From: an uncultured Erysipelotrichaceae bacterium
GTDB lineage: Bacteria > Bacillota_I > Bacilli_A > RF39 > UBA660
Reading direction: 5' to 3'
Length of the DNA: 64,000 nucleotides
NCBI GenBank assembly: GCA_902789225.1
Contig: CADANC010000001.1
Coordinates: forward strand, 265,438-329,437
A model generated the notes under the pieces. The model worked only from the letters and a program-made list of their open reading frames with translations. It did no database searches and had not been told where the DNA came from. The position numbers and the translations under genes were made by a program. Of the stretch, positions 8,066 to 43,881 are shown one piece after another. Positions within the stretch are counted from its first letter, which is position 1. Every line of letters begins with the position of its first letter.

Positions 8066-8098
8066 TAAAAAAGAAAAAAGACTATTACTAGTCTTTTA
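8066..8098 (-). terminator. Terminator of the class B sortase gene
   Basis: A stem AAAAGACTA / TAGTCTTTT with a T-rich tail lies at the end of the sortase gene on the minus strand. Confidence 0.8.
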
Positions 8099-9037
8099 AA
8101 AAGCTTCTTCGTTAATTAATTTAGCATGTACAACTTTTCTACCTTTATTATCTTCTGTACAAGTAGATAGAGTAATTATTTTATCACTTGCACTAACAGT
8201 CTCACCAAATCCCATTGTATCTTTACCAGCAAGACCATTTAACCAATTTTGATATTCACTATCACTATAGAAATCAACTTGTAGATAATCAACTACAGGC
8301 TCACTTATATAAACACTAAATATTTTATAAGTATATTTTTTACCAGGAGTTAAAACAATAATATTATGAGAAGTATTATTAAACCATTTCTTAGTGAATA
8401 ATTTACTAACACTACCAAATCCACCTTTATTTAATAAATTATGTCCATAAAATATAACATTATAATCACTCATAGGTCTATTTCTATAATCCATAAAAAT
8501 CCAACCATTATGTGTATAATCTTTAGTAAAATTATGAGTTAAATAAAAGTCATTATCAGAAGTTAAAACAACAGGATAATTAATATTAGTACCATCAACA
8601 CTAATCCATGCAACAGTCTGTTCATTAATACTTTGTAACCAATTAAAATCTACTTCGCTCAAACTCATTTTACTAAATCTAGCATATGAGTAATCAGCAA
8701 TAATGCTCTCATCTTGAGGTGGAGCCTCTTCTACCTTTTCTTCTACCTTAGGAATATCATCATTTTTAGATAAATCAACAACTTTTTGTCCAGGAGAATA
8801 TATTAAACTAAAAATAGTAGTAAAACTCAAAATATAAATACAAGCAAGCAAAATAGCTTCAGGTCTATCTTTTTCAAGTAATTTATTAATAGGCTTATCA
8901 AATTTATTTTTAAATATTTTATTTAATACTTTTAATACAGAAATAAGAATTGTACTAACACCTGTATAAATAATGTTAAGAATAAATGTAAAACCATTCA
9001 TAGTAGTATTAAAAAGATATGCTAAAATTTTAAACAT
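8096..9037 (-). CDS. Class B sortase
   Basis: 313 aa. This membrane transpeptidase cuts a sorting signal and joins the surface protein to peptidoglycan. Two hydrophobic regions (about 15-38 and 60-80) lie before a catalytic domain with WISVDGTNINYPVV and FMDYRN, typical of class B. The catalytic triad is intact: His199 (FYGHNLL), Cys293 (TLSTC) and Arg300 (GRKVVHAKL). It is longer at the N-terminus than usual. The NPKTG and NPVTG proteins at 14016 and 39271 are the likely substrates, since class B enzymes prefer NPxTx; this pairing is inferred. It follows a small membrane protein by 15 bp. Confidence 0.9.
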   Translation of the reverse strand: MFKILAYLFNTTMNGFTFILNIIYTGVSTILISVLKVLNKIFKNKFDKPINKLLEKDRPEAILLACIYILSFTTIFSLIYSPGQKVVDLSKNDDIPKVEEKVEEAPPQDESIIADYSYARFSKMSLSEVDFNWLQSINEQTVAWISVDGTNINYPVVLTSDNDFYLTHNFTKDYTHNGWIFMDYRNRPMSDYNVIFYGHNLLNKGGFGSVSKLFTKKWFNNTSHNIIVLTPGKKYTYKIFSVYISEPVVDYLQVDFYSDSEYQNWLNGLAGKDTMGFGETVSASDKIITLSTCTEDNKGRKVVHAKLINEEAF

Positions 9038-14015: not shown

Positions 14016-15137
14016 TTATTTATTAAAAACATTTCTTTTGAATAAATATAATCCTACAAAAGTTCCTAATAATGGAATTAATAAAAATAATAAATATGTT
14101 CCTGTTTTTGGATTATCAATTGGTGGAATTTTTTCACATTTACCAGTAAATGTTTTATCTCCAAGTTCCCAAGCTTCTATTGTATTTCCTTCTTCCCATC
14201 CCAAGAATCTATATCCATCCTTAACTAATGGATTTTTAATAATTACCTTAGAACCAGAAGTATACTTTCTTGGATTATCAGGATTATGCTCACAACCTTC
14301 AAGTTTATAAGTAATATTAAAATCATAAGTCAATGCATATAAATATGGAAGATATAAAGTATCATTTCTAGGATATGAACTAAATTCAAATTCTGAAGTA
14401 TCATCTAATTCTAATAAAAATATAGGACCACTAAATTCATATAAAGGGCCTTTATATACATCACTATAATTATTATCAGACCAAAATAATCCATTATCTT
14501 TAACATAAAAACTTTCACTAAAATGAGGATCTTCAGGTGTTGCATTAGCACCATTTGATTCTGCATCAATATAATAAACTGCTCTATCTTTTAAATCCAT
14601 TTCATATTCAGAACCATCAGGATCAGCAAAACCAAATAACCCACTATATCTAAAAGGATTTCCATCTTCATCAAAAAAATAAATTTTAAAATCAATTCTT
14701 GGTCTATTTTCTTTTGCAGATATTACAGTAGAAGCTCCTCCCATAGCAGATCTAGTTCTTAATTTAAATGACCCATTATTTAACATAATAGAGTTCATAG
14801 GTTCTGGATTTGTACCCATTTGTTCAGGTCTATTAAAAACAGCATCAATTTTCATAGTAATATTTTTACCAAAAAAACTTATAGCATCAGGATATGTTAC
14901 AGTATATTTCTTACCATATTCAATTAAATATTCTTCCTTTTCTTCATCTTCTTCATTATTTCCAACTAAAATATTTGATTTATACTTAGAACCATCAAAC
15001 GTAAACTCTTTAATATTTTCAGTATCTAATTCTATTCCAATATCTTTAATAGTTTTATTCTCAGCATTTACAATTGGTATATAAACTATTCCTACAAAAA
15101 CAATTATAAAAGCAATTATTCTTAATATTTTTTTCAT
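14016..15137 (-). CDS. Cell-wall-anchored surface protein, NPKTG signal
   Basis: 373 aa. It has a signal peptide (about 1-25, cleavage near NAENK), a polar beta-rich extracellular part, and a C-terminal sorting signal: NPKTG (342-346), a hydrophobic segment and the basic tail KRNVFNK. A Listeria-Bacteroides (InlB B-type) repeat is visible at about 275-335 (GYRFLGWEE...FTGKCE). NPxTG is expected to be used by the class B sortase at 8096. It stands alone with tandem terminators after it. No adhesin or enzyme domain can be named. Confidence 0.85.
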   Translation of the reverse strand: MKKILRIIAFIIVFVGIVYIPIVNAENKTIKDIGIELDTENIKEFTFDGSKYKSNILVGNNEEDEEKEEYLIEYGKKYTVTYPDAISFFGKNITMKIDAVFNRPEQMGTNPEPMNSIMLNNGSFKLRTRSAMGGASTVISAKENRPRIDFKIYFFDEDGNPFRYSGLFGFADPDGSEYEMDLKDRAVYYIDAESNGANATPEDPHFSESFYVKDNGLFWSDNNYSDVYKGPLYEFSGPIFLLELDDTSEFEFSSYPRNDTLYLPYLYALTYDFNITYKLEGCEHNPDNPRKYTSGSKVIIKNPLVKDGYRFLGWEEGNTIEAWELGDKTFTGKCEKIPPIDNPKTGTYLLFLLIPLLGTFVGLYLFKRNVFNK

Positions 15138-26184: not shown

Positions 26185-26213
26185 ATTATATCACTGATTA
26201 CTTGAAAATACAA
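26185..26213 (-). promoter_or_regulatory. Promoter of the serine T-box operon
   Basis: TTGTAT (26208-26213) and TATAAT (26185-26190) are 17 bp apart with a TG one base before the -10, on the minus strand. The -35 lies in the last codons of the upstream membrane protein gene. Confidence 0.8.
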
Positions 26214-26997
26214 ATGGTTTTTCACAAGACATAGGATCAAAATGATCAAGACTTAAATAAGTAAAGAAGCCTACATCACTAGCATCTAATTCATTAATAT
26301 TAACATTATTAATACCCATAACTCCATCAGTTAAAGTAATATATACATCAGTTTTTCCACTATCATAATGTTCTATTCTAACATAACCCTCTAAACTTTG
26401 TTTAAAGAATGGTGAAACATATGAATTACCAAACTGTTCTTTAGAATCATTAATATTAAAATAATATTGATGAGAAATAGTAGTACTACATTTTTGTCCT
26501 TCTTGACTAAAATATGTTTGTACTTGAAGACCTATATCTTTTGCTTTAACAGCATAGTTTTCTCTTTTTTCACTAAATGAACCCTTTGCACCAGGTAAAA
26601 AGTGAATAATAACCATAATAACAATACCAATAATAATAATATCTAAAATCAAACCAATAAGTTTATTTAAAAAAGTCTTTGTCTTATTAGCATTAATGAA
26701 TTTAGCATTATAATTACCATTATCTGGAGTAACATTATAATTAAAATCAGAATATCCTGATGATTTAGATCTTGGTTTTCTTACTCCATAACTAAAATCA
26801 TTATTAGGTTGACTATCATTTTGACCTTGAAAGATACTAGTATCACTTTTATCTACACTAGGTGTATTGTTAGAAACACTTGGTCCTGATTTATTTCTTT
26901 TGCCTCTAAAGAAATCACCAAATATGGACTTTTTTTCTTCGTATCCTTCTAATTCATCATCTCTAATTGAATTATCATCTTCATTTTTTCCAAACAC
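26191..26997 (-). CDS. Single-pass membrane protein, paralogue of the next gene upstream
   Basis: 268 aa with a GTG start after AGGTGATATAA. About 110 polar cytoplasmic residues come first, then one membrane helix at about 113-132 and a 135-residue outside domain. EGYVRIEHYDSGKTDVYITL in that domain matches EGYIKIVRVDNKYDYYINL at the same place in the neighbour at 27007. Two Cys (KCSTT and MSCEK) also match in spacing. No family recognised. Its end overlaps the promoter of the serine T-box operon. Confidence 0.75.
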   Translation of the reverse strand: MFGKNEDDNSIRDDELEGYEEKKSIFGDFFRGKRNKSGPSVSNNTPSVDKSDTSIFQGQNDSQPNNDFSYGVRKPRSKSSGYSDFNYNVTPDNGNYNAKFINANKTKTFLNKLIGLILDIIIIGIVIMVIIHFLPGAKGSFSEKRENYAVKAKDIGLQVQTYFSQEGQKCSTTISHQYYFNINDSKEQFGNSYVSPFFKQSLEGYVRIEHYDSGKTDVYITLTDGVMGINNVNINELDASDVGFFTYLSLDHFDPMSCEKPFVFSSNQ

Positions 26998-27006
26998 TTA
27001 TATCAC

Positions 27007-27675
27007 CTACCTACAATTACTATCAGTAATAGTATCCATTTCTACTCCAAAATAAGGCAAGACATCCCATGAACTAACTTTTTCAACTTTTTTTTCCATA
27101 ATACCAAATTGTCCAGCCTTCAAATTAATATAATAATCATATTTATTATCTACTCTTACTATTTTAATATATCCTTCATAATTATTATCTAATTTAATAC
27201 CACCTATTTTTTCAATAGATTTAGTATCAAAAACTATATAATAAGCACCATCTATTTCATTACAAGAACTAAAATTATCATTATATTTATTTTTAATTAT
27301 AGAAACAATCTTATTAGCATCTTCAACTACTTTAGTTTGATAACTTTTTACTTTTCCAACAATTACACATAGTATTACTAAAAAGACTGCAAGAATAATC
27401 CATTTAGCAAACTTATTCATAATAGTGAAAAACAGTCCATTTACTTCATGAACTTTTTTCGTTTTTTCTTTAGTTTCTCCAACGTCGATATATTTATTTT
27501 TTCTCTTTAAAAAACTAAAAATACTCTTTTTATTATATTTTTTCAAATACTCATTTTGAGAATTATCATAATTAATGTATCCACAATGAACACAAAATCT
27601 ATCGGTAACTTTCATCTCAAATCCACATTTTGGACACATTATAGATGGAATACGATTATTATCATTTGTATCCAA
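27007..27675 (-). CDS. Zinc-ribbon single-pass membrane protein
   Basis: 222 aa from a TTG at 27675, chosen because GAGGTG lies 6 bases before it; a GTG three codons earlier is possible. The N-terminus is a zinc ribbon (CPKCGFEMK...FCVHCGYIN), then a basic linker, a membrane helix at about 90-108 and an outside domain related to that of the protein at 26191. A zinc ribbon inside and a sensor-like domain outside resemble many Firmicutes envelope proteins of unknown function. Starts 11 bp after the SGNH-like gene. Confidence 0.75.
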   Translation of the reverse strand: MDTNDNNRIPSIMCPKCGFEMKVTDRFCVHCGYINYDNSQNEYLKKYNKKSIFSFLKRKNKYIDVGETKEKTKKVHEVNGLFFTIMNKFAKWIILAVFLVILCVIVGKVKSYQTKVVEDANKIVSIIKNKYNDNFSSCNEIDGAYYIVFDTKSIEKIGGIKLDNNYEGYIKIVRVDNKYDYYINLKAGQFGIMEKKVEKVSSWDVLPYFGVEMDTITDSNCR

Positions 27676-27686
27676 GCAAATCACCT

Positions 27687-28977: not shown

Positions 28978-29008
28978 AAAAAAAAAGAAATTAATCAAAT
29001 TTCTTTTT
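28978..29008 (-). terminator. Terminator of the adhesin-sortase operon
   Basis: AAAAGAAATT / AATTTCTTTT stem followed by nine T on the minus strand, overlapping the end of the polytopic membrane protein gene. Confidence 0.8.
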
Positions 29009-29563
29009 AAAGTATATATATAGTTTATAAAACATAGTATAAATAAACCAAATCAGTAATAATAGATTACTAATTTGAACTAAACTAAGTATTGTATTAT
29101 TAGTATATAGTTGTTTCATATCACTTAACTCAATACCATTAGAAGCACTAAGTGTAACAAATAATAAGAATAAAAAATATATACCTACAAAGAAAATATA
29201 ATTAAATATTTTCTTAAACATAGTCATTTTCTTACTAAAAACAGTTACCATAATCATAACAGAAACAAATAATATTATGAAAAAATAAACTATAGTAGAA
29301 GGAAAATATATATATTTCATAATAGACTTAAATAATGATCTAAATGAATAAGAAACATAATCTCCATAACTAAGAAATACTCCTAAAAATAAACCAATAA
29401 ATATAGCAAAAAAGCCTATATTTATAAATATGTTTTTTCTTTTTAAATTAAGAATTAAAAGAATAAACAAAAGTAAACAAAAAATAAACAATTCTAAAGT
29501 AATATATGAAGAAAACATATATTTAATAACAAACCACATCTTATCAAGTAAAGAACTGTTCAT
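28991..29563 (-). CDS. Polytopic membrane protein, unknown function
   Basis: 190 aa with about five membrane segments (about 18-40, 45-68, 83-108, 118-140 and 158-182) and short basic loops; the C-terminus IYFKKKFD is basic. It lies 13 bp after the sortase gene and closes the adhesin-sortase operon. No motif is recognised. An accessory role in export or anchoring of the adhesin is possible but only inferred from position. Confidence 0.7.
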   Translation of the reverse strand: MNSSLLDKMWFVIKYMFSSYITLELFIFCLLLFILLILNLKRKNIFINIGFFAIFIGLFLGVFLSYGDYVSYSFRSLFKSIMKYIYFPSTIVYFFIILFVSVMIMVTVFSKKMTMFKKIFNYIFFVGIYFLFLLFVTLSASNGIELSDMKQLYTNNTILSLVQISNLLLLIWFIYTMFYKLYIYFKKKFD

Positions 29564-29576
29564 AATTTCACCCCAA

Positions 29577-30233
29577 TTATTCTAATTCTGCAACATAAAT
29601 AGTTTGATGATTATTATCATCTTTAGTACATGTAATTAAAGTAAGACAAGTCTTAGACTCATTTCTAATTACATCAACCCATCCAACTTTATCAACATTA
29701 TATATATTAACAATTCTATAATTATATACATTACCATTATAAGTAACACTAGCAGTATCACCAATATTTAATTTATATAAAGTTCTAAAATATGAATTGT
29801 AACCTGTACCTGAATGTGCAACTAATATTAAATTACCATTTTGTACGTCAGGTAAATCAGATCCAGGTAAAAACATAACATTATATTTTATATCATTATA
29901 TTTATTATCAGTATTATAAAATCCTCTTTTTAAATGAATTTTAGGTATCTCTAAAACTCCTAAATATTTACTGTAATCAATTGGCTTTTCCTCTTCCTCT
30001 GGTTTTGTGGTTACAGCAACTTCCTCAGTAATAGGAACATCTTCAACCACTTGAACATTTTCTTCAGAAAATAGAATTAGCATATCAGAATAAAGTTCAT
30101 TCCTAATATCAACTAATTTAGGCCAATTAAGAGCAACAATTCCTCCAAAAACAAGTAAAGAGCCAAATAACATTATCTGGCTCTTTTTTAATTTGTTTTT
30201 ATTGTTGTGTTTGTGTTTTTTGTTTTCTAACAT
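29577..30233 (-). CDS. Sortase, probably dedicated to the upstream VPDTA protein
   Basis: 218 aa. A basic N-terminus is followed by a membrane helix (about 19-37), a linker rich in Val, Pro and Glu, and a sortase domain starting YLGVLEIPKIHLKRGFYN. His140 (VAHSGTG) and Cys202 (LTLITC) are present. The residue matching the catalytic Arg of other sortases appears to be Gln210 (HQTIYVAEL against KRKIFVA in S. aureus SrtA), which is unusual. It overlaps the adhesin gene by 35 bp, so translation is likely coupled. The fold is closer to class A/D than to B; class not settled. Confidence 0.85.
   Translation of the reverse strand: MLENKKHKHNNKNKLKKSQIMLFGSLLVFGGIVALNWPKLVDIRNELYSDMLILFSEENVQVVEDVPITEEVAVTTKPEEEEKPIDYSKYLGVLEIPKIHLKRGFYNTDNKYNDIKYNVMFLPGSDLPDVQNGNLILVAHSGTGYNSYFRTLYKLNIGDTASVTYNGNVYNYRIVNIYNVDKVGWVDVIRNESKTCLTLITCTKDDNNHQTIYVAELE
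30157..30186. other. Strong hairpin inside the sortase start region
   Basis: AAAGAGCCA / TGGCTCTTT with a mostly paired inner part lies about 47 bases into the sortase gene, just after the adhesin stop. On the plus strand it is followed by seven T and looks like a terminator; on the coding strand the T run is poor (TTTAC). It may act as an attenuator or mRNA stabiliser between adhesin and sortase, or end antisense transcripts. Confidence 0.4.
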
Positions 30234-31473
30234 TTATATATAAGATACCTAATCCAGATAACAATACAATTAAACCAACAATATAAATTGTTCCAGAGAT
30301 ATCTGTAGCAGTATCAGGAACTTTAACTATAGAAAAGTCTAAACCTTTACTTACTTCTTTAGGAAGAGTACCTAACATAGTTACAGTTTGATGACCATTA
30401 GCTTTATAATAGTATCCACTGATTACATCAAATTTATAATTAAATACTAATGTAACATTTTTCTTTTCAGTAGAAACTGCATCTTTTGGAACATAAATTC
30501 TAAAATGATCATATGAAGCTAGAGAAATATTAGTTAAATCTTTAATTTCATTACAATCACCACTTGAAGGACAACCATATAACTTAGCATTATCAATTCC
30601 ATTTAATGAAGCAGCAACTGAACTACTACTAGCACCTAATGTTTCAACATTAATCTTACCAGTTCTGTAGAAATCACCAGATTCAGTCCATTGAGAATTT
30701 CCTTCATTAGCAACGCTTAAGTTAATTGAAACGTCATCTAAAGTTCCTTCTTTAGTTAATGCTTCACTTACAGCTGCACTAACTCCATAATGATTAAACC
30801 ATGAATCTCCACCTGGACAATTATAAACTTCCGCATAATCCCCATCATTTGATGAAACTGAAGTAGAAGATTTTATAGCTTCATAATCGAAATCACCTAC
30901 ATACATTTCAGGATTAGAAGGTCCCAATTTTTCAGCTTGATAAGCCCAAACAGCATTTTGTCTTACCCAAGCAGCAATATCTTCACCACTACAAGCATTT
31001 GATGTACAACCAAATTTGTTATTTGAAGAATAATCGTTTTCAATTCTTGCACCAATTTCATCTAATCTTTGAATTAAATAAATTAGTCCAGCATCATTAA
31101 TGCTTCCATCTTGATTTAAAGTAGCTCCATTACCACCATAACCTACTCCATATTCTAGACAAATTCCACGAGCAGTACCACTAGACTCGCCACTAGCTCC
31201 ACCATATTGTAATTTAAATAAGAAAGTAGCAACACTAGCATTATTACCCTTCAAATGTTTATCAACACTTAATGCCTTAACAGATTCAGGCAATGTTTCT
31301 AGACTTTCATATGAATAAGATGGTTTAAATGCAACTACTAATAATATTGAAGCTATAGCGATAAAAGCAATTGCAAAACTTAAACCAACTGTAACATTTA
31401 ACATATTAAATGTCTTTTTTGTTTGTCTTGTTTGTTTTTGGTTTTGATTGTTTTCCATATAAATTTTTTCCAT
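30199..31473 (-). CDS. Probable thioester-domain surface adhesin with VPDTA signal
   Basis: 424 aa. Residues 1-50 hold a long cytoplasmic lead and a signal/anchor helix (about 28-49). Residues about 75-235 look like a thioester (TQXA) domain: Cys105 (GICLEYG) and Gln172 in RQNAVW, which resembles TQxAIW. Such domains form an internal Cys-Gln thioester that can bind host proteins covalently. A beta-rich part follows, and the end is VPDTA (385-389), a hydrophobic helix and RKQKTQTQQ. The signal is not a standard LPxTG, so the adjacent sortase is the likely partner. Confidence 0.75.
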   Translation of the reverse strand: MEKIYMENNQNQKQTRQTKKTFNMLNVTVGLSFAIAFIAIASILLVVAFKPSYSYESLETLPESVKALSVDKHLKGNNASVATFLFKLQYGGASGESSGTARGICLEYGVGYGGNGATLNQDGSINDAGLIYLIQRLDEIGARIENDYSSNNKFGCTSNACSGEDIAAWVRQNAVWAYQAEKLGPSNPEMYVGDFDYEAIKSSTSVSSNDGDYAEVYNCPGGDSWFNHYGVSAAVSEALTKEGTLDDVSINLSVANEGNSQWTESGDFYRTGKINVETLGASSSSVAASLNGIDNAKLYGCPSSGDCNEIKDLTNISLASYDHFRIYVPKDAVSTEKKNVTLVFNYKFDVISGYYYKANGHQTVTMLGTLPKEVSKGLDFSIVKVPDTATDISGTIYIVGLIVLLSGLGILYINVRKQKTQTQQ

Positions 31474-31540: not shown

Positions 31541-32764
31541 TTAACTAATTTCAATTAATTCCTTTACACTTTTAATTCTCATATCTTTATTTATATATAG
31601 TGTAGCAAGCAATTCTCCTCTTTTTACTTTATCACCTAATTGCTTATTTAATTTAATTCCTACACCATAATCAATCTTATCATCTAGCTTAGTTCTTCCA
31701 GCACCTAATTTAACAGAAAGTTTACCAAATTCCAAAGCATCAATCTTTGTAATTTTACCACTCTTATAGGCTCTAATATGTTTAGTCTTCTTAGAAACTT
31801 TCAATTTATTGATGTCTCCACCTTGAGACTTAACCAAATCTAAAAACTTACCATAAGCCAATCCACTATCAATTGAGTTTTTAACTTCCATTAAAGCTTC
31901 TTTCTTACTTATATTTTTTCCTAAGCTGATCATCTCACTAGCTAAGTCATAACAAACATCTACTAAATGAGTGTTTAGTTCTTTGCCTCGTAAAACATCA
32001 ATTGCTTCTTGAACTTCCAAAGCATTACCAATGTTATAACCTAAAGGTGTATTCATATCATTAATAATTACACTTACATTTCTATTATAAATTCTTCCAA
32101 TTTCAATCATTAATTCTTTTAACTTATTAGCATCTTTCATGTTAGAAATAAGCGCACCATTGCCAACTTTTAAATCAATAACTATTGAATCAGCACCACT
32201 TGCTATTTTCTTACTCATAATAGAAGATGCTATTAAACCAATACTAGAAACAGTACCAGTAACATCTCTAAGCGCATAAATCATTTTATCCATAGGAACT
32301 AAATTAGCAGTTTGACTACTTATAACAACACCTATATCTTTAGCTTGTTTTAATATTTCTTTTTCACTTAGATCAACTCTAAATCCAGGAATAGATTCTA
32401 ACTTATCAATAGTACCACCTGTATAGCCTAATCCTTTTCCACTCATTTTAATAACATTAACACCACAAGAAGCAACAATAGGAGCAATTATTAAAGTAGT
32501 CTTGTCACCAATACCACCAGTAGAATGTTTATCAACCAAAGGTCCATTTAATTTATAATTAAGAACATCACCACTATCAATAAATATTTTAGTAAGAGCA
32601 TAAACTTCCTCATCTGTTAATCCGTTAATACATATAGCCATTAATAAACTACTCATTTGATAATCAGCTATTTTCCCATCTAAATAACCTTCAAAAAAAT
32701 CTCTTAATTCAACAAAACTTAATTCTTCCCCCAACCTTTTCTTATTAATAATATCTACTATCAT
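31541..32764 (-). CDS. pdp: Pyrimidine-nucleoside phosphorylase
   Basis: 407 aa from the ATG at 32764, which follows GAAAGGA; an upstream in-frame start lacks a site. It splits uridine, thymidine and deoxyuridine with phosphate. DKHSTGGIGDKTTLI, MSGKGLGYTGGTIDKLESIPG and LKVGNGAL are signatures of the thymidine/pyrimidine phosphorylase family; the shortened C-terminal domain is slightly below the usual 430 residues. It follows a GNAT gene by 1 bp and tdk lies upstream, a nucleoside salvage cluster. Whether it prefers thymidine (deoA) cannot be told from sequence alone. Confidence 0.93.
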   Translation of the reverse strand: MIVDIINKKRLGEELSFVELRDFFEGYLDGKIADYQMSSLLMAICINGLTDEEVYALTKIFIDSGDVLNYKLNGPLVDKHSTGGIGDKTTLIIAPIVASCGVNVIKMSGKGLGYTGGTIDKLESIPGFRVDLSEKEILKQAKDIGVVISSQTANLVPMDKMIYALRDVTGTVSSIGLIASSIMSKKIASGADSIVIDLKVGNGALISNMKDANKLKELMIEIGRIYNRNVSVIINDMNTPLGYNIGNALEVQEAIDVLRGKELNTHLVDVCYDLASEMISLGKNISKKEALMEVKNSIDSGLAYGKFLDLVKSQGGDINKLKVSKKTKHIRAYKSGKITKIDALEFGKLSVKLGAGRTKLDDKIDYGVGIKLNKQLGDKVKRGELLATLYINKDMRIKSVKELIEIS

Positions 32765-32765
32765 C

Positions 32766-33158
32766 CTAATTATTCCTTTCAAATAGATTAGTTCCATATA
32801 TTTCAAAGCCTAAATCTAAATACATTTTATTTGCAGCTTCTCTCTTCGGATTTGAATCTAATTTAATCATTTTACAATCACTACATCTCTCTATAGTATC
32901 AATAACCATCTGTTTTCCATATCCGTGACCCCTATAATCAGGATCAATACAAACAAAATTTATCCAAGCATATTTAAAATTCTTAATAACATCAAAATCT
33001 CTAGTAACATTTAAATATCCTACAACCATTCCATCAACTTCATATACCAAACTCTCAACATTAGAAGATGTATGAACTTTTTCTATATTCATATCAAACG
33101 AACTATCTATTATCTTTTTAACAGCCAAAAAATCATTATCATTATATTCTCTTAACAT
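32766..33158 (-). CDS. GNAT family N-acetyltransferase
   Basis: 130 aa from the ATG at 33158, which follows AGGTGATTAT. The acetyl-CoA loop is seen in CIDPDYRGHGYGKQMVIDTI (Arg/Gln-x-x-Gly-x-Gly/Ala type) and the C-terminal NKMYLDLGFEIYG is typical. Substrate unknown. It is between tdk and pdp and would be co-transcribed with pdp. Confidence 0.9.
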   Translation of the reverse strand: MLREYNDNDFLAVKKIIDSSFDMNIEKVHTSSNVESLVYEVDGMVVGYLNVTRDFDVIKNFKYAWINFVCIDPDYRGHGYGKQMVIDTIERCSDCKMIKLDSNPKREAANKMYLDLGFEIYGTNLFERNN

Positions 33159-39270: not shown

Positions 39271-42200
39271 TTACTTTCTAAATTTTCTTATAATTTTTTT
39301 ATTACGTACAGATATTCCTAATATAACAATAGAAAGTAATACAATAACAAATAAAGTCTTTACTCCATTACCAGTAACTGGATTTTTAAATGGTCTAGTA
39401 TAAGTATTAGTTACAACAACATCAATATGAGAATCACCTTCAATTAATCCTGTCTTATTACTAATCTTAGTTTCATAACCATCTTTAGAATAATCTTCCT
39501 CTTCAATTGTATATTTCATACCAACAGGTAAATTATATAGATTAATAGTTTCTCCATCTTTTAAACTAAATACGCCTACACCATCTACAAACTCAACATC
39601 ACCATATTTAGTATTAAGTAAATCTAAATCTTCAATTTCATCAACTAAACGATAATGTTCTATTGTATTAGTATTTTCAGTATCACTATTTGATTGTTGC
39701 TCAATATCATCTGCAGGAATATCTTCATCCACAACATTTTCATCTTCTATTGGAAGCGCTAAAGTAACTTTAAACTTAAATTCTTTATGCTTATCTATAG
39801 CTCTTAAATCATATAAAGCATCAACTTTCTTAGTTATACTAACATTTCCAGATGAACTAACATGATATGTTTTTGGTGACCAAAGTTCATATTTAACATT
39901 ATTGAATCCTCTTAATTGAGCTTGATTAGTAATTAATTCTTTATTACTTGTTGTAACAGTTACAGGAATTAAGATATGCAACTCTTCTCCAGCCAATAAT
40001 TGTTTAACATTAAAATTCATCTTTCTATTGTCATTGTCAAATTCAACATCAATAGCACCATCTTCACTTAATAATCTATATTCATTTATACTTCCTTCAC
40101 CAGTTTTATAATAAGCAAGATAATCAGGATGAACTAAAACAGCGTCAGATACCTCATCAGTAACTAAAACATCAGAGAATGATTCAAAAGTACTATCATT
40201 TTTAACAACAACATCATAAATATATTTTTCGCCTTTTTGAACCATAGTTGGATTCTCTTCAGTACCACTTACTTTAGAAGATTTCTTATCTATAGAAATT
40301 GGAACATCATGTAATAACACTTGAGTCCATTCATATACAGAATAACTAAAGTGTGGAGCTTCATTTCCTTGTTGAGTTGTACCTTTCCACCAAGAAGCAT
40401 TCTTAGCAGTTGCTCCAGCCTCTTCTAACTCTTTAGCATTATCAACAGGTGCTTGCATTGTCATAGTAATTGTTACACTTTCTTCAGATTTTAAAGTATA
40501 ATCATTACCATTAGTATCTTTAGATAAATCTATCGCAATAGCAGTTACACTAGACATATCTTCAGGTGGTTCTGTAGACCAAATAGATGTATCACTAATA
40601 TCAGTTACACTAGGTGGATCTTGATCAGCAATAGCTTTACCTTTCTCATAGAAATTTAAATCAGTCTTAGTTGTATAGTAAACTACAGGTTCTATTCCCT
40701 TAGATTTAGGTTGAACAAGATTTATATCTATTAGTTTACCTTTCCAACTAGGAGTTCCATCATCATAAGTCTCTAATTGATCATATATAACTAATCCAGT
40801 AGATTTCATATTCTTTTGAGATTGATAACGTAATTGATATGTATAATATCCTCCTGCATTTGCCACAACATCACCTTGCTGTCCATCAACAAAATCAGTC
40901 ATACCAGCCGTCTTAACTTCTTTTCTAAATGAAGCATCAGAAGCAGTATTAAATGCAAATGACAAACCAGTTTGAGCATATACAGTATCTTTAATTGTTC
41001 CTTCTGGATTTCCATCTTCATCTAAATCAGACATATAATCTTTATCTGCAATAGTAGAAGTAGAAATACTAGAACTATCATCTGGATAACCATTACTTAA
41101 ACTTCCACTACCAGACTTATATGCAACAGTATTTACTAAATATGAACCATAGTCAGCAATACTATCCCAACTATAATATGCCTTAAATGTTAATTGCATA
41201 CCACTATAAGTTGCATCAGAATAACTATATCTATTGGTTTCATTTTCATCTACTTTAGCTTTAACAATCAGCATATCTCTACCAGTACCCTTCCAGTTAG
41301 ATTTAACTGAAGATGTAACCGGTATATTTTTACCATTTCTATATCCAGTAACTTTAACTGTACTTAAGTCAGCACTTACACCTATAGGTAATAAATCATA
41401 GAAAGTTCCAACTTTTTGTTCATTAATTATTTTATAATCATAAATTTCATCTGCTGTTAAAACATCAGAATCAAAATCACGATATTCATAAGCATAAGCA
41501 GTATAATTCGCAACTACACGTCTATTTAATACATCATTACTATAAGTAACACTCTTAGATTGTGAAGTAGAACCACCACTAATTCTAGAATAATCCATAT
41601 AATCATATTCATGCGCCACGTCACCAAGACCATATCTTTCTTGATCTAAATCATGAATAATTTGACTAAAATTACTTCTTAAGCCATATCCATAACTATC
41701 ATCAGTATAAATATTTCCATCTTGTTCAGCATACATTGTATTAACATTATAAACACGTAAAGTATCACTATCTTTATAAATATTCTTAACTTTATCACTA
41801 TTAATTAAATTAGCTTTAAAGTCTAAATAAAGAGAAGAACTATAGTGGTTAGTCTCATAAGAGGCCTTAACACCAGTAGTACCAGCAGGTAAATCAACTA
41901 AACTAGATGAAGAAACATTCTTTTCATTTCCATCATTATCTATAAATTTATATGTATTATTAGTAGTTGTCTTAATAATTCCCAATTTCTTCCAATTACC
42001 ATTAGTTTTATAATAAATATCTATATCAGGATAACTAGCATAATTGGTATCGGTAGTTTCCTTATATCCTGTATAGTGAGTAGTTTCTTTAGTACTTGCA
42101 TTATAATATGTCCATTCTTGATATGTATAATGTCTTTGATAATAATCTCTAATATAGAAACCAGTTAATTCATAATCACCATAACCAAGTTTTACATAAT

Positions 42201-43881
42201 CAGTATCAGCGTTAGATGCAAGGAAGTCTTCATTAACTAGATTAAATTTATATTTCTTTTTTTCATAATTGTTTAAATCTGCAATACTACCTGTTCCGCC
42301 ATAAGTTAAATTATAGCCTTGAAAGTAACCATAAGTTGACCAGTTTCTAGAACTATAAGTTTTACTTCCCAACCTAACCTTATAATCACTGTCTGAATTA
42401 GATAAAGTGTTTAAACCACCTCGCATAAGGCCATAAGAATCATGATAATAACATGATGATGAAGTACATTTTCCAACTAAAGAGCTAGCTGAATAATAAT
42501 AAGCATCAACTATATCATCCACTAAATTTCCTGATCTAATAGGTACAACCCCAGGGATATCAACCCAAACATCAGTTGGCTCAATATAAACATATTTATA
42601 ATTAATTGAACTAGTTGCTTCCTTAACATCAGTTGCTCCATCAACACCAGTTAACTCAACTATTGCTTTATTTTTTAAAGTATGAGTCTCACCGTCTTGT
42701 AAAACATCTTTAGGATATTTAACCATATAATAGTAATAATAGTATTGTTCATATTGTTCAAATGGCCTTGTAATACTTGCAGTTAATGGTTGAGTAGATG
42801 CTTTATGACCAGTACTACTAGAATAACTACTATAAAGATCACGTCCATAACTATATGTAGTAGAAGTATCTGTGACATTTTTAGAAAAACAACTATCAAC
42901 ATAATCATAACTATAATATCTACAATAACCAATTACTTCTCCACCTAAATCATCAACCACTTCATCTCTAAATTTCAAACTATATGGTTGAGTAGCATAA
43001 CTTACCTGAGAAGTAGACCTCCATATAGCATAAACATAATCAGAATCATTTTCAGGTTTAATTGAAGGGCTCCAATTATTATTCCAATTAGAATAAACAT
43101 TAACATTAGTTGCACTATCATTATCCCAGTGAGTACTAGCATAATTATAATGAGAAGAAACTGCAGCATGAGATTTATTCTCAAACTTTAATGTATTTGA
43201 AGTAGCTAAAATATCTATTAAATCATCTTGTTCAAAATCTACACTAACTGTACCTTGAATATTTTTAGTATATCCATCAGCTAACTCTGAAGGTGTAACC
43301 AAAATCCAAGTAATTGAACATTCAAAAAGGTAAGATGCAGAAATTTCTTGATTATTTTCTAAAACAATCCAGTCGTTTCCATCATCATCTTTTTCATATC
43401 TCCAGTTAAAACCAGTTCCACCTTCATTTGGATATTCAACAAGAGGAATATCTATAACTTGATTAGTTAAAGGTTTTCCATCTCTTCCATAATATAAATA
43501 TCTAGGTATCTTAATTGTTATTGAACCTGCAGGTGCATTTTTAGAACCACCCATATTAAAAACCAATTGATATGTAGCATGTCCTCCACCACCAGTATTA
43601 GATGATGCATTATATCGTTTATTTTGAACAGCATTCATAATAAAATGAGAAGTATCATTTTCATCTATTGAACCTGCATTATTTATCTTGCTATTAGTCC
43701 ACGCTAATTGGAATTCTCCAACTTCATTTGAAGCATTAGGACTTAATCTAACATTCTTATTAACCTTATGATAACTTTTGAATAATCCTATAGATATAAC
43801 AAAAGTAATAATAACTAATCCAAAAACTACAAGAAACAATTTTTTAGATAGTTTTAAATTTTTCCCTTTAAACTTTTTCAT
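39271..43881 (-). CDS. Large wall-anchored surface protein, NPVTG signal
   Basis: 1536 aa. A signal/anchor helix at about 13-30 is followed by a 1100-residue region rich in Tyr, Ser, Asp and Thr without a clear repeat, a DUF11-like conserved domain near 1230-1340 (VQKGEKYIYDVVVKNDS, VLVTDEVSD), and a pilin-linker/CNA-B-like domain near 1365-1495 (VSITKKVDALYDL ... LPVGMKYTIEEED ... VVVTNTYTRPF). The end is NPVTG (about 1500-1504), a hydrophobic helix and RNKKIIRKFRK. Domains of this kind often carry Lys-Asn isopeptide bonds. AAAGGAGAG precedes the ATG. Likely substrate of the class B sortase at 8096. Confidence 0.88.
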   Translation of the reverse strand: MKKFKGKNLKLSKKLFLVVFGLVIITFVISIGLFKSYHKVNKNVRLSPNASNEVGEFQLAWTNSKINNAGSIDENDTSHFIMNAVQNKRYNASSNTGGGGHATYQLVFNMGGSKNAPAGSITIKIPRYLYYGRDGKPLTNQVIDIPLVEYPNEGGTGFNWRYEKDDDGNDWIVLENNQEISASYLFECSITWILVTPSELADGYTKNIQGTVSVDFEQDDLIDILATSNTLKFENKSHAAVSSHYNYASTHWDNDSATNVNVYSNWNNNWSPSIKPENDSDYVYAIWRSTSQVSYATQPYSLKFRDEVVDDLGGEVIGYCRYYSYDYVDSCFSKNVTDTSTTYSYGRDLYSSYSSSTGHKASTQPLTASITRPFEQYEQYYYYYYMVKYPKDVLQDGETHTLKNKAIVELTGVDGATDVKEATSSINYKYVYIEPTDVWVDIPGVVPIRSGNLVDDIVDAYYYSASSLVGKCTSSSCYYHDSYGLMRGGLNTLSNSDSDYKVRLGSKTYSSRNWSTYGYFQGYNLTYGGTGSIADLNNYEKKKYKFNLVNEDFLASNADTDYVKLGYGDYELTGFYIRDYYQRHYTYQEWTYYNASTKETTHYTGYKETTDTNYASYPDIDIYYKTNGNWKKLGIIKTTTNNTYKFIDNDGNEKNVSSSSLVDLPAGTTGVKASYETNHYSSSLYLDFKANLINSDKVKNIYKDSDTLRVYNVNTMYAEQDGNIYTDDSYGYGLRSNFSQIIHDLDQERYGLGDVAHEYDYMDYSRISGGSTSQSKSVTYSNDVLNRRVVANYTAYAYEYRDFDSDVLTADEIYDYKIINEQKVGTFYDLLPIGVSADLSTVKVTGYRNGKNIPVTSSVKSNWKGTGRDMLIVKAKVDENETNRYSYSDATYSGMQLTFKAYYSWDSIADYGSYLVNTVAYKSGSGSLSNGYPDDSSSISTSTIADKDYMSDLDEDGNPEGTIKDTVYAQTGLSFAFNTASDASFRKEVKTAGMTDFVDGQQGDVVANAGGYYTYQLRYQSQKNMKSTGLVIYDQLETYDDGTPSWKGKLIDINLVQPKSKGIEPVVYYTTKTDLNFYEKGKAIADQDPPSVTDISDTSIWSTEPPEDMSSVTAIAIDLSKDTNGNDYTLKSEESVTITMTMQAPVDNAKELEEAGATAKNASWWKGTTQQGNEAPHFSYSVYEWTQVLLHDVPISIDKKSSKVSGTEENPTMVQKGEKYIYDVVVKNDSTFESFSDVLVTDEVSDAVLVHPDYLAYYKTGEGSINEYRLLSEDGAIDVEFDNDNRKMNFNVKQLLAGEELHILIPVTVTTSNKELITNQAQLRGFNNVKYELWSPKTYHVSSSGNVSITKKVDALYDLRAIDKHKEFKFKVTLALPIEDENVVDEDIPADDIEQQSNSDTENTNTIEHYRLVDEIEDLDLLNTKYGDVEFVDGVGVFSLKDGETINLYNLPVGMKYTIEEEDYSKDGYETKISNKTGLIEGDSHIDVVVTNTYTRPFKNPVTGNGVKTLFVIVLLSIVILGISVRNKKIIRKFRK

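Follow-up and report, generated by a model that had tools for sequence, protein, structure and literature searches.

The window, a stretch of 64,000 nucleotides from an uncultured Erysipelotrichaceae bacterium, carries on its minus strand four consecutive genes in the order phosphorylase-like gene (31541-32806), adhesin (30199-31473, 424 aa), sortase homologue (29577-30233, 218 aa) and membrane protein (28991-29563, 190 aa, about five transmembrane helices). The first of these is a conserved upstream neighbour with a homologue in 74 of the 80 loci compared, and from its sequence we take its product to be a pyrimidine-nucleoside (thymidine) phosphorylase-like enzyme. The adhesin and sortase frames share the 35 bp at 30199-30233, as the initial annotation had noted, and the Cys105, RQNAVW and VPDTA that it had read in the adhesin are all present in the open reading frame. 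Its further proposal of a dedicated sortase holds well, since an adhesin homologue lies directly upstream of the sortase gene and overlaps its start in 79 of the 80 loci from named genomes, the remaining locus ending at a contig edge. Because of this overlap and the presence of Cys105, Gln172 and Trp176 in each of 82 aligned adhesins, the arrangement is not due to chance. The third gene of the module is conserved too, with the 190-aa membrane protein downstream of the sortase in 79 of the 80 loci. Elsewhere in the window, 26191-26997 and 27007-27684 encode adjoining membrane proteins whose C-terminal halves look alike, one of them with a zinc-ribbon-like start, and these are apparently tandem paralogues.

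Measured against L114, which is the nearest relative, dN/dS comes to about 0.12/0.42 (about 0.29) for the adhesin and about 0.06/0.22 for the sortase, and judged on this pair both genes are under purifying selection. The host genome is 1.6 Mb in size and retains two PBP transpeptidase domains, so a cell wall is present for anchoring. Peptidoglycan is predicted in most species of the order RF39, and the excerpted text of the same paper does not include RF39 among the orders that it lists as lacking sortases (PMC10868615). The nearest named relatives are MAGs of uncultured Bacilli, Firmicutes and Tenericutes, several of whose isolate names point to the gut of goat, sheep, yak and roe deer. A tblastn search for the sortase in 72,556 plasmid records returned no match, so that this collection gives no hint of the gene being carried on plasmids, and folding of the 5' leader RNA gave no structure signal (z -0.60).

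The adhesin consists, in order, of an N-terminal signal or transmembrane helix (residues 27-48), a single class II thioester domain (TED; residues about 59-385 by structure-model alignment) and a sorting signal. Its structure model (pLDDT 75, pTM 0.63) was most similar to Enterococcus faecium TIE86 (EfmTIE86; 6fwy_C, Z 15.5, rmsd 4.4, 256 residues aligned) and Bacillus anthracis TIE (BaTIE; 6fwv_B, Z 15.3, rmsd 4.4, 248 aligned), followed by other solved TEDs at Z 9.3 to 8.6 and by unrelated folds at 7.8 and below; the best Foldseek E value was 3.9e-11. The class II fold, comprising a head and a beta-sandwich insert, is thus recognisable in the predicted structure. The profile search that had been recommended for this protein succeeded with the relatives and failed with the window adhesin itself, which gave no match to Pfam TED (PF08341) or NCBIfam TQXA (TIGR03934) even at an E value of 10, whereas 15 of the 20 members of the A1 alignment matched PF08341 (best 1.7e-10) and three matched TIGR03934 at E<=1. 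The missing match probably reflects a limit of detection rather than of definition. A search of PDB sequences with the A1 profile found weak TED rows (4c0z, E 0.36; 5dcq, E 0.37) amid phosphoglycerate kinase noise, and the A4 profile, built from 20 TED proteins of the organism's own family with the window adhesin included, matched the BaTIE chain 6fwv at 3.4e-60. The fold match and the relatives that match Pfam TED bear out, in kind, the idea of a thioester-domain adhesin, and the protein is a divergent class II TED.

Since the model match covers residues 59-385 and the A4 profile matches BaTIE, a single TED makes up almost all of the ectodomain, with the sorting signal directly after it. A stalk of isopeptide or ester domains is absent, as the TED fills 59-385 and the sorting motif occupies 385-389, and we did not file the adhesin as a TIE protein, which is a TED on such a stalk. 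A stalkless TED would sit low in the wall, and this counts against an explanation as a covalent adhesin. Identity with L114 is patchy along the protein (25/39 at 61-103, 36/60 at 181-240 and 124/145 at 241-385), which suggests that the head contains variable loops. The pdp-locus adhesins share a strongly conserved cytoplasmic start, MEKIY (A1 columns 1-12), which is unusual for a signal peptide.

Cys105 (codon 31159-31161, minus strand) is found in 82 of 82 relatives and aligns onto the thioester cysteine of BaTIE in the A4 profile alignment, in agreement with its earlier designation as the predicted thioester cysteine. The bond to Gln172 that the initial annotation had envisaged did not stand. 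Gln172 (codon 30958-30960, minus strand), likewise present in 82 of 82 relatives, lies within WVRQNAVW and belongs to the helical TQxxΦW motif, which forms no bond; in the characterised TEDs covered by the excerpts of two papers, the glutamine of TQxxW hydrogen-bonds the cysteine backbone and is dispensable for the thioester, and the bond-forming glutamine is located downstream of this motif (PMC4450167; PMC6194298). The most likely partner of Cys105 is Gln362 in GHQTVT (codon 30388-30390, minus strand), which the structure model places between two long strands, at the turn of the hairpin 338-357/364-382. This residue is invariant in the A1 alignment (20/20) and in 81 of 82 aligned adhesins, the exception (L137) being an alignment slip, and its column falls one residue off the BaTIE thioester glutamine in the A4 profile alignment, with the BaTIE chain numbering converted. 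On the strength of its conservation, its hairpin position and its closeness to the known BaTIE glutamine, we infer a thioester between Cys105 and Gln362. A long distance between Cys105 and Gln172 would therefore be no argument against a thioester, contrary to what had been assumed. A disulfide at Cys105, raised as another objection, is unlikely given that in 12 of the 82 relatives a single cysteine follows residue 50.

The published thioester motifs are followed with some departures. At the [YFL]C-hydrophobic-polar motif the window adhesin reads ICLE and is one step off, with isoleucine before Cys105 (in the 82 adhesins F 58, Y 20, I 2 and L 2). RQNAVW corresponds to TQxxΦW, in which the glutamine and tryptophan are kept in 82 of 82 adhesins and the threonine in 57; the window adhesin and L114 have arginine at the threonine site. 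Gln362 fits the weak ΦQζΦΦ motif in the C-terminal part of the TED, and the histidine before it in the window is a departure from the published form.

The sorting motif VPDTA (residues 385-389; 30307-30321, minus strand) is followed by a transmembrane helix and a basic tail. Among the 82 adhesins Pro386 is kept in 77, Asp387 in 66 and Thr388 in 81, and position 389 is Gly in 55, Ala in 15, Ser in 11 and Asn in one. This end is indeed unlike those of two other surface proteins of the window, for which NPxTG motifs had been noted and which terminate in NPKTG (14016-15137) and NPVTG (39271-43881). The second sortase of the window (8096-9037, minus strand) is class B-like and keeps its arginine (TEDNKGRKVV). 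It serves as an internal control to the Gln-bearing enzyme, and the NPKTG and NPVTG proteins may be among its substrates.

The sortase next to the adhesin belongs to the sortase domain family by its Pfam score (PF04203, 65.9 bits against a cut-off of 26.6) and by its fold (match to 3re9, Z 18.2), and it has lost the catalytic arginine, on which the initial annotation was silent. The catalytic histidine, His140 of AHSG (codon 29814-29816, minus strand), and the catalytic cysteine, Cys202 of TLITC (codon 29628-29630, minus strand), are each conserved in 79 of 79 sequences and in 63 of 63 members of the clade defined below. Eight residues after the cysteine, where the catalytic arginine would stand on strand b8, there is Gln210 (codon 29604-29606, minus strand), which is glutamine in 80 of 80 loci and aligns without a gap to the arginine of Streptococcus agalactiae SrtA (3rcc), for which C184 and R192 are named in the excerpted text of PMC3166054. 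Published papers on sortases describe the Cys-His-Arg triad as strictly conserved, and we found no description of a Gln-for-Arg sortase in the CC-licensed text of PubMed Central. We classed the enzyme as a homologue of sortases that departs from the canonical His-Cys-Arg triad, and assigned it to none of the classes A-F. All NCBIfam class models that were listed, which did not include those of classes A and B, scored far below their cut-offs (bits/cut-off: class C 61.7/160, class D 37.5/165, class E 34.6/160, class F 17.1/166).

A tree of sortase domains from the organism's own family and five other families placed the loss of arginine on a single branch. From 140 domains, 120 of them distinct, three were removed as false (L016_0 and L256_0, which lie in other ORFs, and L274_0, a TC that occurs for the second time in the same protein), which reduced the set to 117; L209, L210, L211, L213, L231 and L263, in which no motif was read, are outside the count, and for seven rows the states were assigned manually from the sequence tails. 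The clade of the window enzyme has Gln in 60 rows, Tyr in two and His in one at the arginine site. Its sister clade, from the same family, has Arg in 6 of 6 rows and all remaining rows have Arg in 48 of 48, making 54 of 54 outside the Gln clade. Only one change between Arg and not-Arg is needed, with SH-aLRT support of 96, or 98 when everything after the catalytic cysteine is left out, in trees of the 'quick' kind for which this was the only support measure and in which L214_0 and L202_1 form long branches. The loss of arginine thus has a single origin, and across the fuller clade glutamine as such is not strictly retained. The three exceptions at this site (L239, L244 and L274) keep Lys182.

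Lys182 (codon 29688-29690, minus strand) lies where strand b6 of the sortase model ends and the b6/b7 loop begins. It is invariant among the relatives (79/79) and in the Gln clade (63/63), whereas the sister clade has lysine at this site in one of six and the 48 other Arg sortases have proline in 31, with lysine outside the four commonest residues. It is the best candidate for a residue that would have taken over the charge near the active site.

Gene neighbourhoods were compared across the same groups. A protein with five transmembrane helices (5-TM) adjoins 44 of 61 Gln-clade sortases, none of six sister sortases and none of 46 other Arg sortases. A TED gene is directly upstream of at least 45 of 61 Gln-clade, at least one of six sister and at least one of 40 other Arg sortases, these being lower bounds because the flanks of the loci are short, often 1500 bases. 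Thus 16 of the 61 Gln-clade sortases are without a TED found directly upstream, and 17 are without the 5-TM partner. Among the 150 sortase and 150 TED matches listed, a TED lies within 4 kb of at least 65 of the sortases of this type, four of six sisters and none of 20 further Arg-bearing sortases from this family. From these neighbour counts, pairing with a TED may predate the loss of arginine, and the membrane protein came with part of the Gln clade. The usual module is a TED adhesin, a Gln-sortase and a five-helix membrane protein. The 5-TM protein matched no Pfam or NCBIfam family and has nearly invariant polar residues, including S18, S19, Y69, Y84, N121, Y153, N155, Q163, N166 and W172.

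Sortases of this profile occur in 142 of 193 genomes of the family and TED matches in 144 of 193 (0/14 in the TED control). A sample of the class yielded such a sortase in 17 of 198 genomes, 16 of them in the same family, and the single one from outside (L232) has Arg. The Gln clade has radiated, with several paralogues per genome, most of them with a TED neighbour of their own. In another TED of the same genome (L097, G000:C30:3224-3490) there is an in-frame TGA, and it is perhaps a pseudogene. One Arg-bearing sortase of the family, L252, which is class C-like, also has a TED gene directly upstream, perhaps encoding a pilus-tip TED.

A conserved covalent-adhesin module is real, and the sortase is its more surprising part. 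We consider it probable that the Gln-sortase uses a rewired active site to attach a covalent adhesin by way of VPDTA, a reading that builds on the gene order, homology, fold match, residue invariance and single Arg to Gln origin observed here. The adhesin would be exported and its class II TED would fold, after which Cys105 would be joined to Gln362 with loss of ammonia. An amine of the putative target would then open the thioester and stay attached to Gln362. The overlapping sortase, which we presume to be active, would cut in VPDTA, presumably after Thr388, and would link the cut adhesin to the cell wall. Catalysis would be carried out by Cys202 and His140, with Gln210 in place of the former catalytic arginine, and the loss of that arginine would be offset by the invariant Lys182 and possibly also by the five-helix partner. 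On balance we also lean towards a broader reading, in which a clade of gut bacteria rewired a sortase to Cys-His-Gln with an invariant loop lysine, retained it while its paralogues radiated, and uses it, often with the five-helix partner, to display thioester adhesins, forming a natural counter-example to the arginine rule.

Other readings of the adhesin fare less well. The invariance of both Cys105 and Gln172 would suit a thioester between these two residues, but the dispensability of the TQxxW glutamine in characterised TEDs and the good fit of Gln362 to the place of the downstream bond glutamine make this very improbable. Alternatively, the TED could be degenerate or purely structural, with no thioester or with Cys105 in a disulfide, as the lack of any score of the window adhesin against the TED profiles and its further cysteines after residue 105 might indicate. 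Such decay sits poorly with a Cys105 and a Gln362 that are kept amid far less conserved surroundings, with the relatives that have a lone cysteine and with the dN/dS of the adhesin, and we regard it as distinctly improbable.

For the sortase, the R200A exchange that abolished activity in an F. alocis enzyme, according to the excerpted text of PMC13257024, implies that Gln-sortases could be weak or dead. The window enzyme might then be a scaffold or substrate sink, with anchoring left to the class B-like sortase at 8096-9037 or to another, and the genome does contain several sortases, of which this class B-like one bears Arg. Unlike in pseudoenzymes, however, the catalytic histidine and cysteine are invariant, and the radiation of the Gln clade with its TED neighbours also speaks against a dead enzyme. 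Moreover, by the general motif rule the class B-like sortase should suit the NPxTG proteins better than VPDTA, and a dead Gln-sortase appears quite unlikely. Somewhat more weight, though still well short of favour, goes to a two-part enzyme in which the missing group comes from the 5-TM protein, or in which this protein brings in the acceptor, be it lipid II or another amine. Its gene stands beside Gln-clade sortases and beside none of the 52 Arg sortases (46 others and six sisters), and its polar residues are nearly invariant, but 17 of 61 Gln-clade sortases do without it, so it cannot be a general compensation, and no family was found for it in Pfam or NCBIfam. Anchoring by an active Gln-sortase with its loop lysine is the reading that we retain.

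The closest known counterparts of the adhesin are the class II TEDs of the TIE proteins BaTIE (6fwv) and EfmTIE86 (6fwy). They share with the window adhesin the fold of the whole ectodomain, the Cys and Gln positions, an export signal and a C-terminal sorting signal (PMC6194298); the window adhesin differs in having no isopeptide stalk, a VPDTA rather than an LPxTG signal, Arg at the Thr site of TQxxW and a private adjacent sortase. TIEpLS20 of the conjugative plasmid pLS20 likewise has a class II TED, whose single thioester cysteine is needed for function, but in the excerpted account it is plasmid-borne, has Cna domains and is not sortase-anchored (PMC8092201), whereas the window locus lies on the chromosome and is linked to a sortase. 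The window sortase resembles class A and C enzymes such as S. agalactiae SrtA (3rcc) and S. suis SrtC1 (3re9) in fold, histidine, TLxTC cysteine and N-terminal membrane anchor, and departs from them in Gln210 (R192 in 3rcc; PMC3166054, in part) and in Lys182, where most have proline. AbpA and its SrtB in oral streptococci also pair an adhesin that has an unusual sorting signal with its own neighbouring sortase, although the excerpts of PMC4974636 do not describe AbpA as a TED and its sortase is of class B, unlike the window locus.

TEDs and private adhesin sortases were already known, and within the CC-licensed PubMed Central text the Arg to Gln sortase variant is the new part. The role of the sortase arginine in substrate orientation, oxyanion stabilisation or charge has been debated mainly on the basis of inactive mutants. 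If active, a natural Gln-sortase with a covarying lysine and an Arg-bearing sister as control would make this role directly testable, and ligation enzymes with new signals of the form PDT[GAS] could follow. For these uncultured gut Bacilli with small genomes, the TED match in 144 of the 193 family genomes suggests a heavy investment in covalent adhesins.
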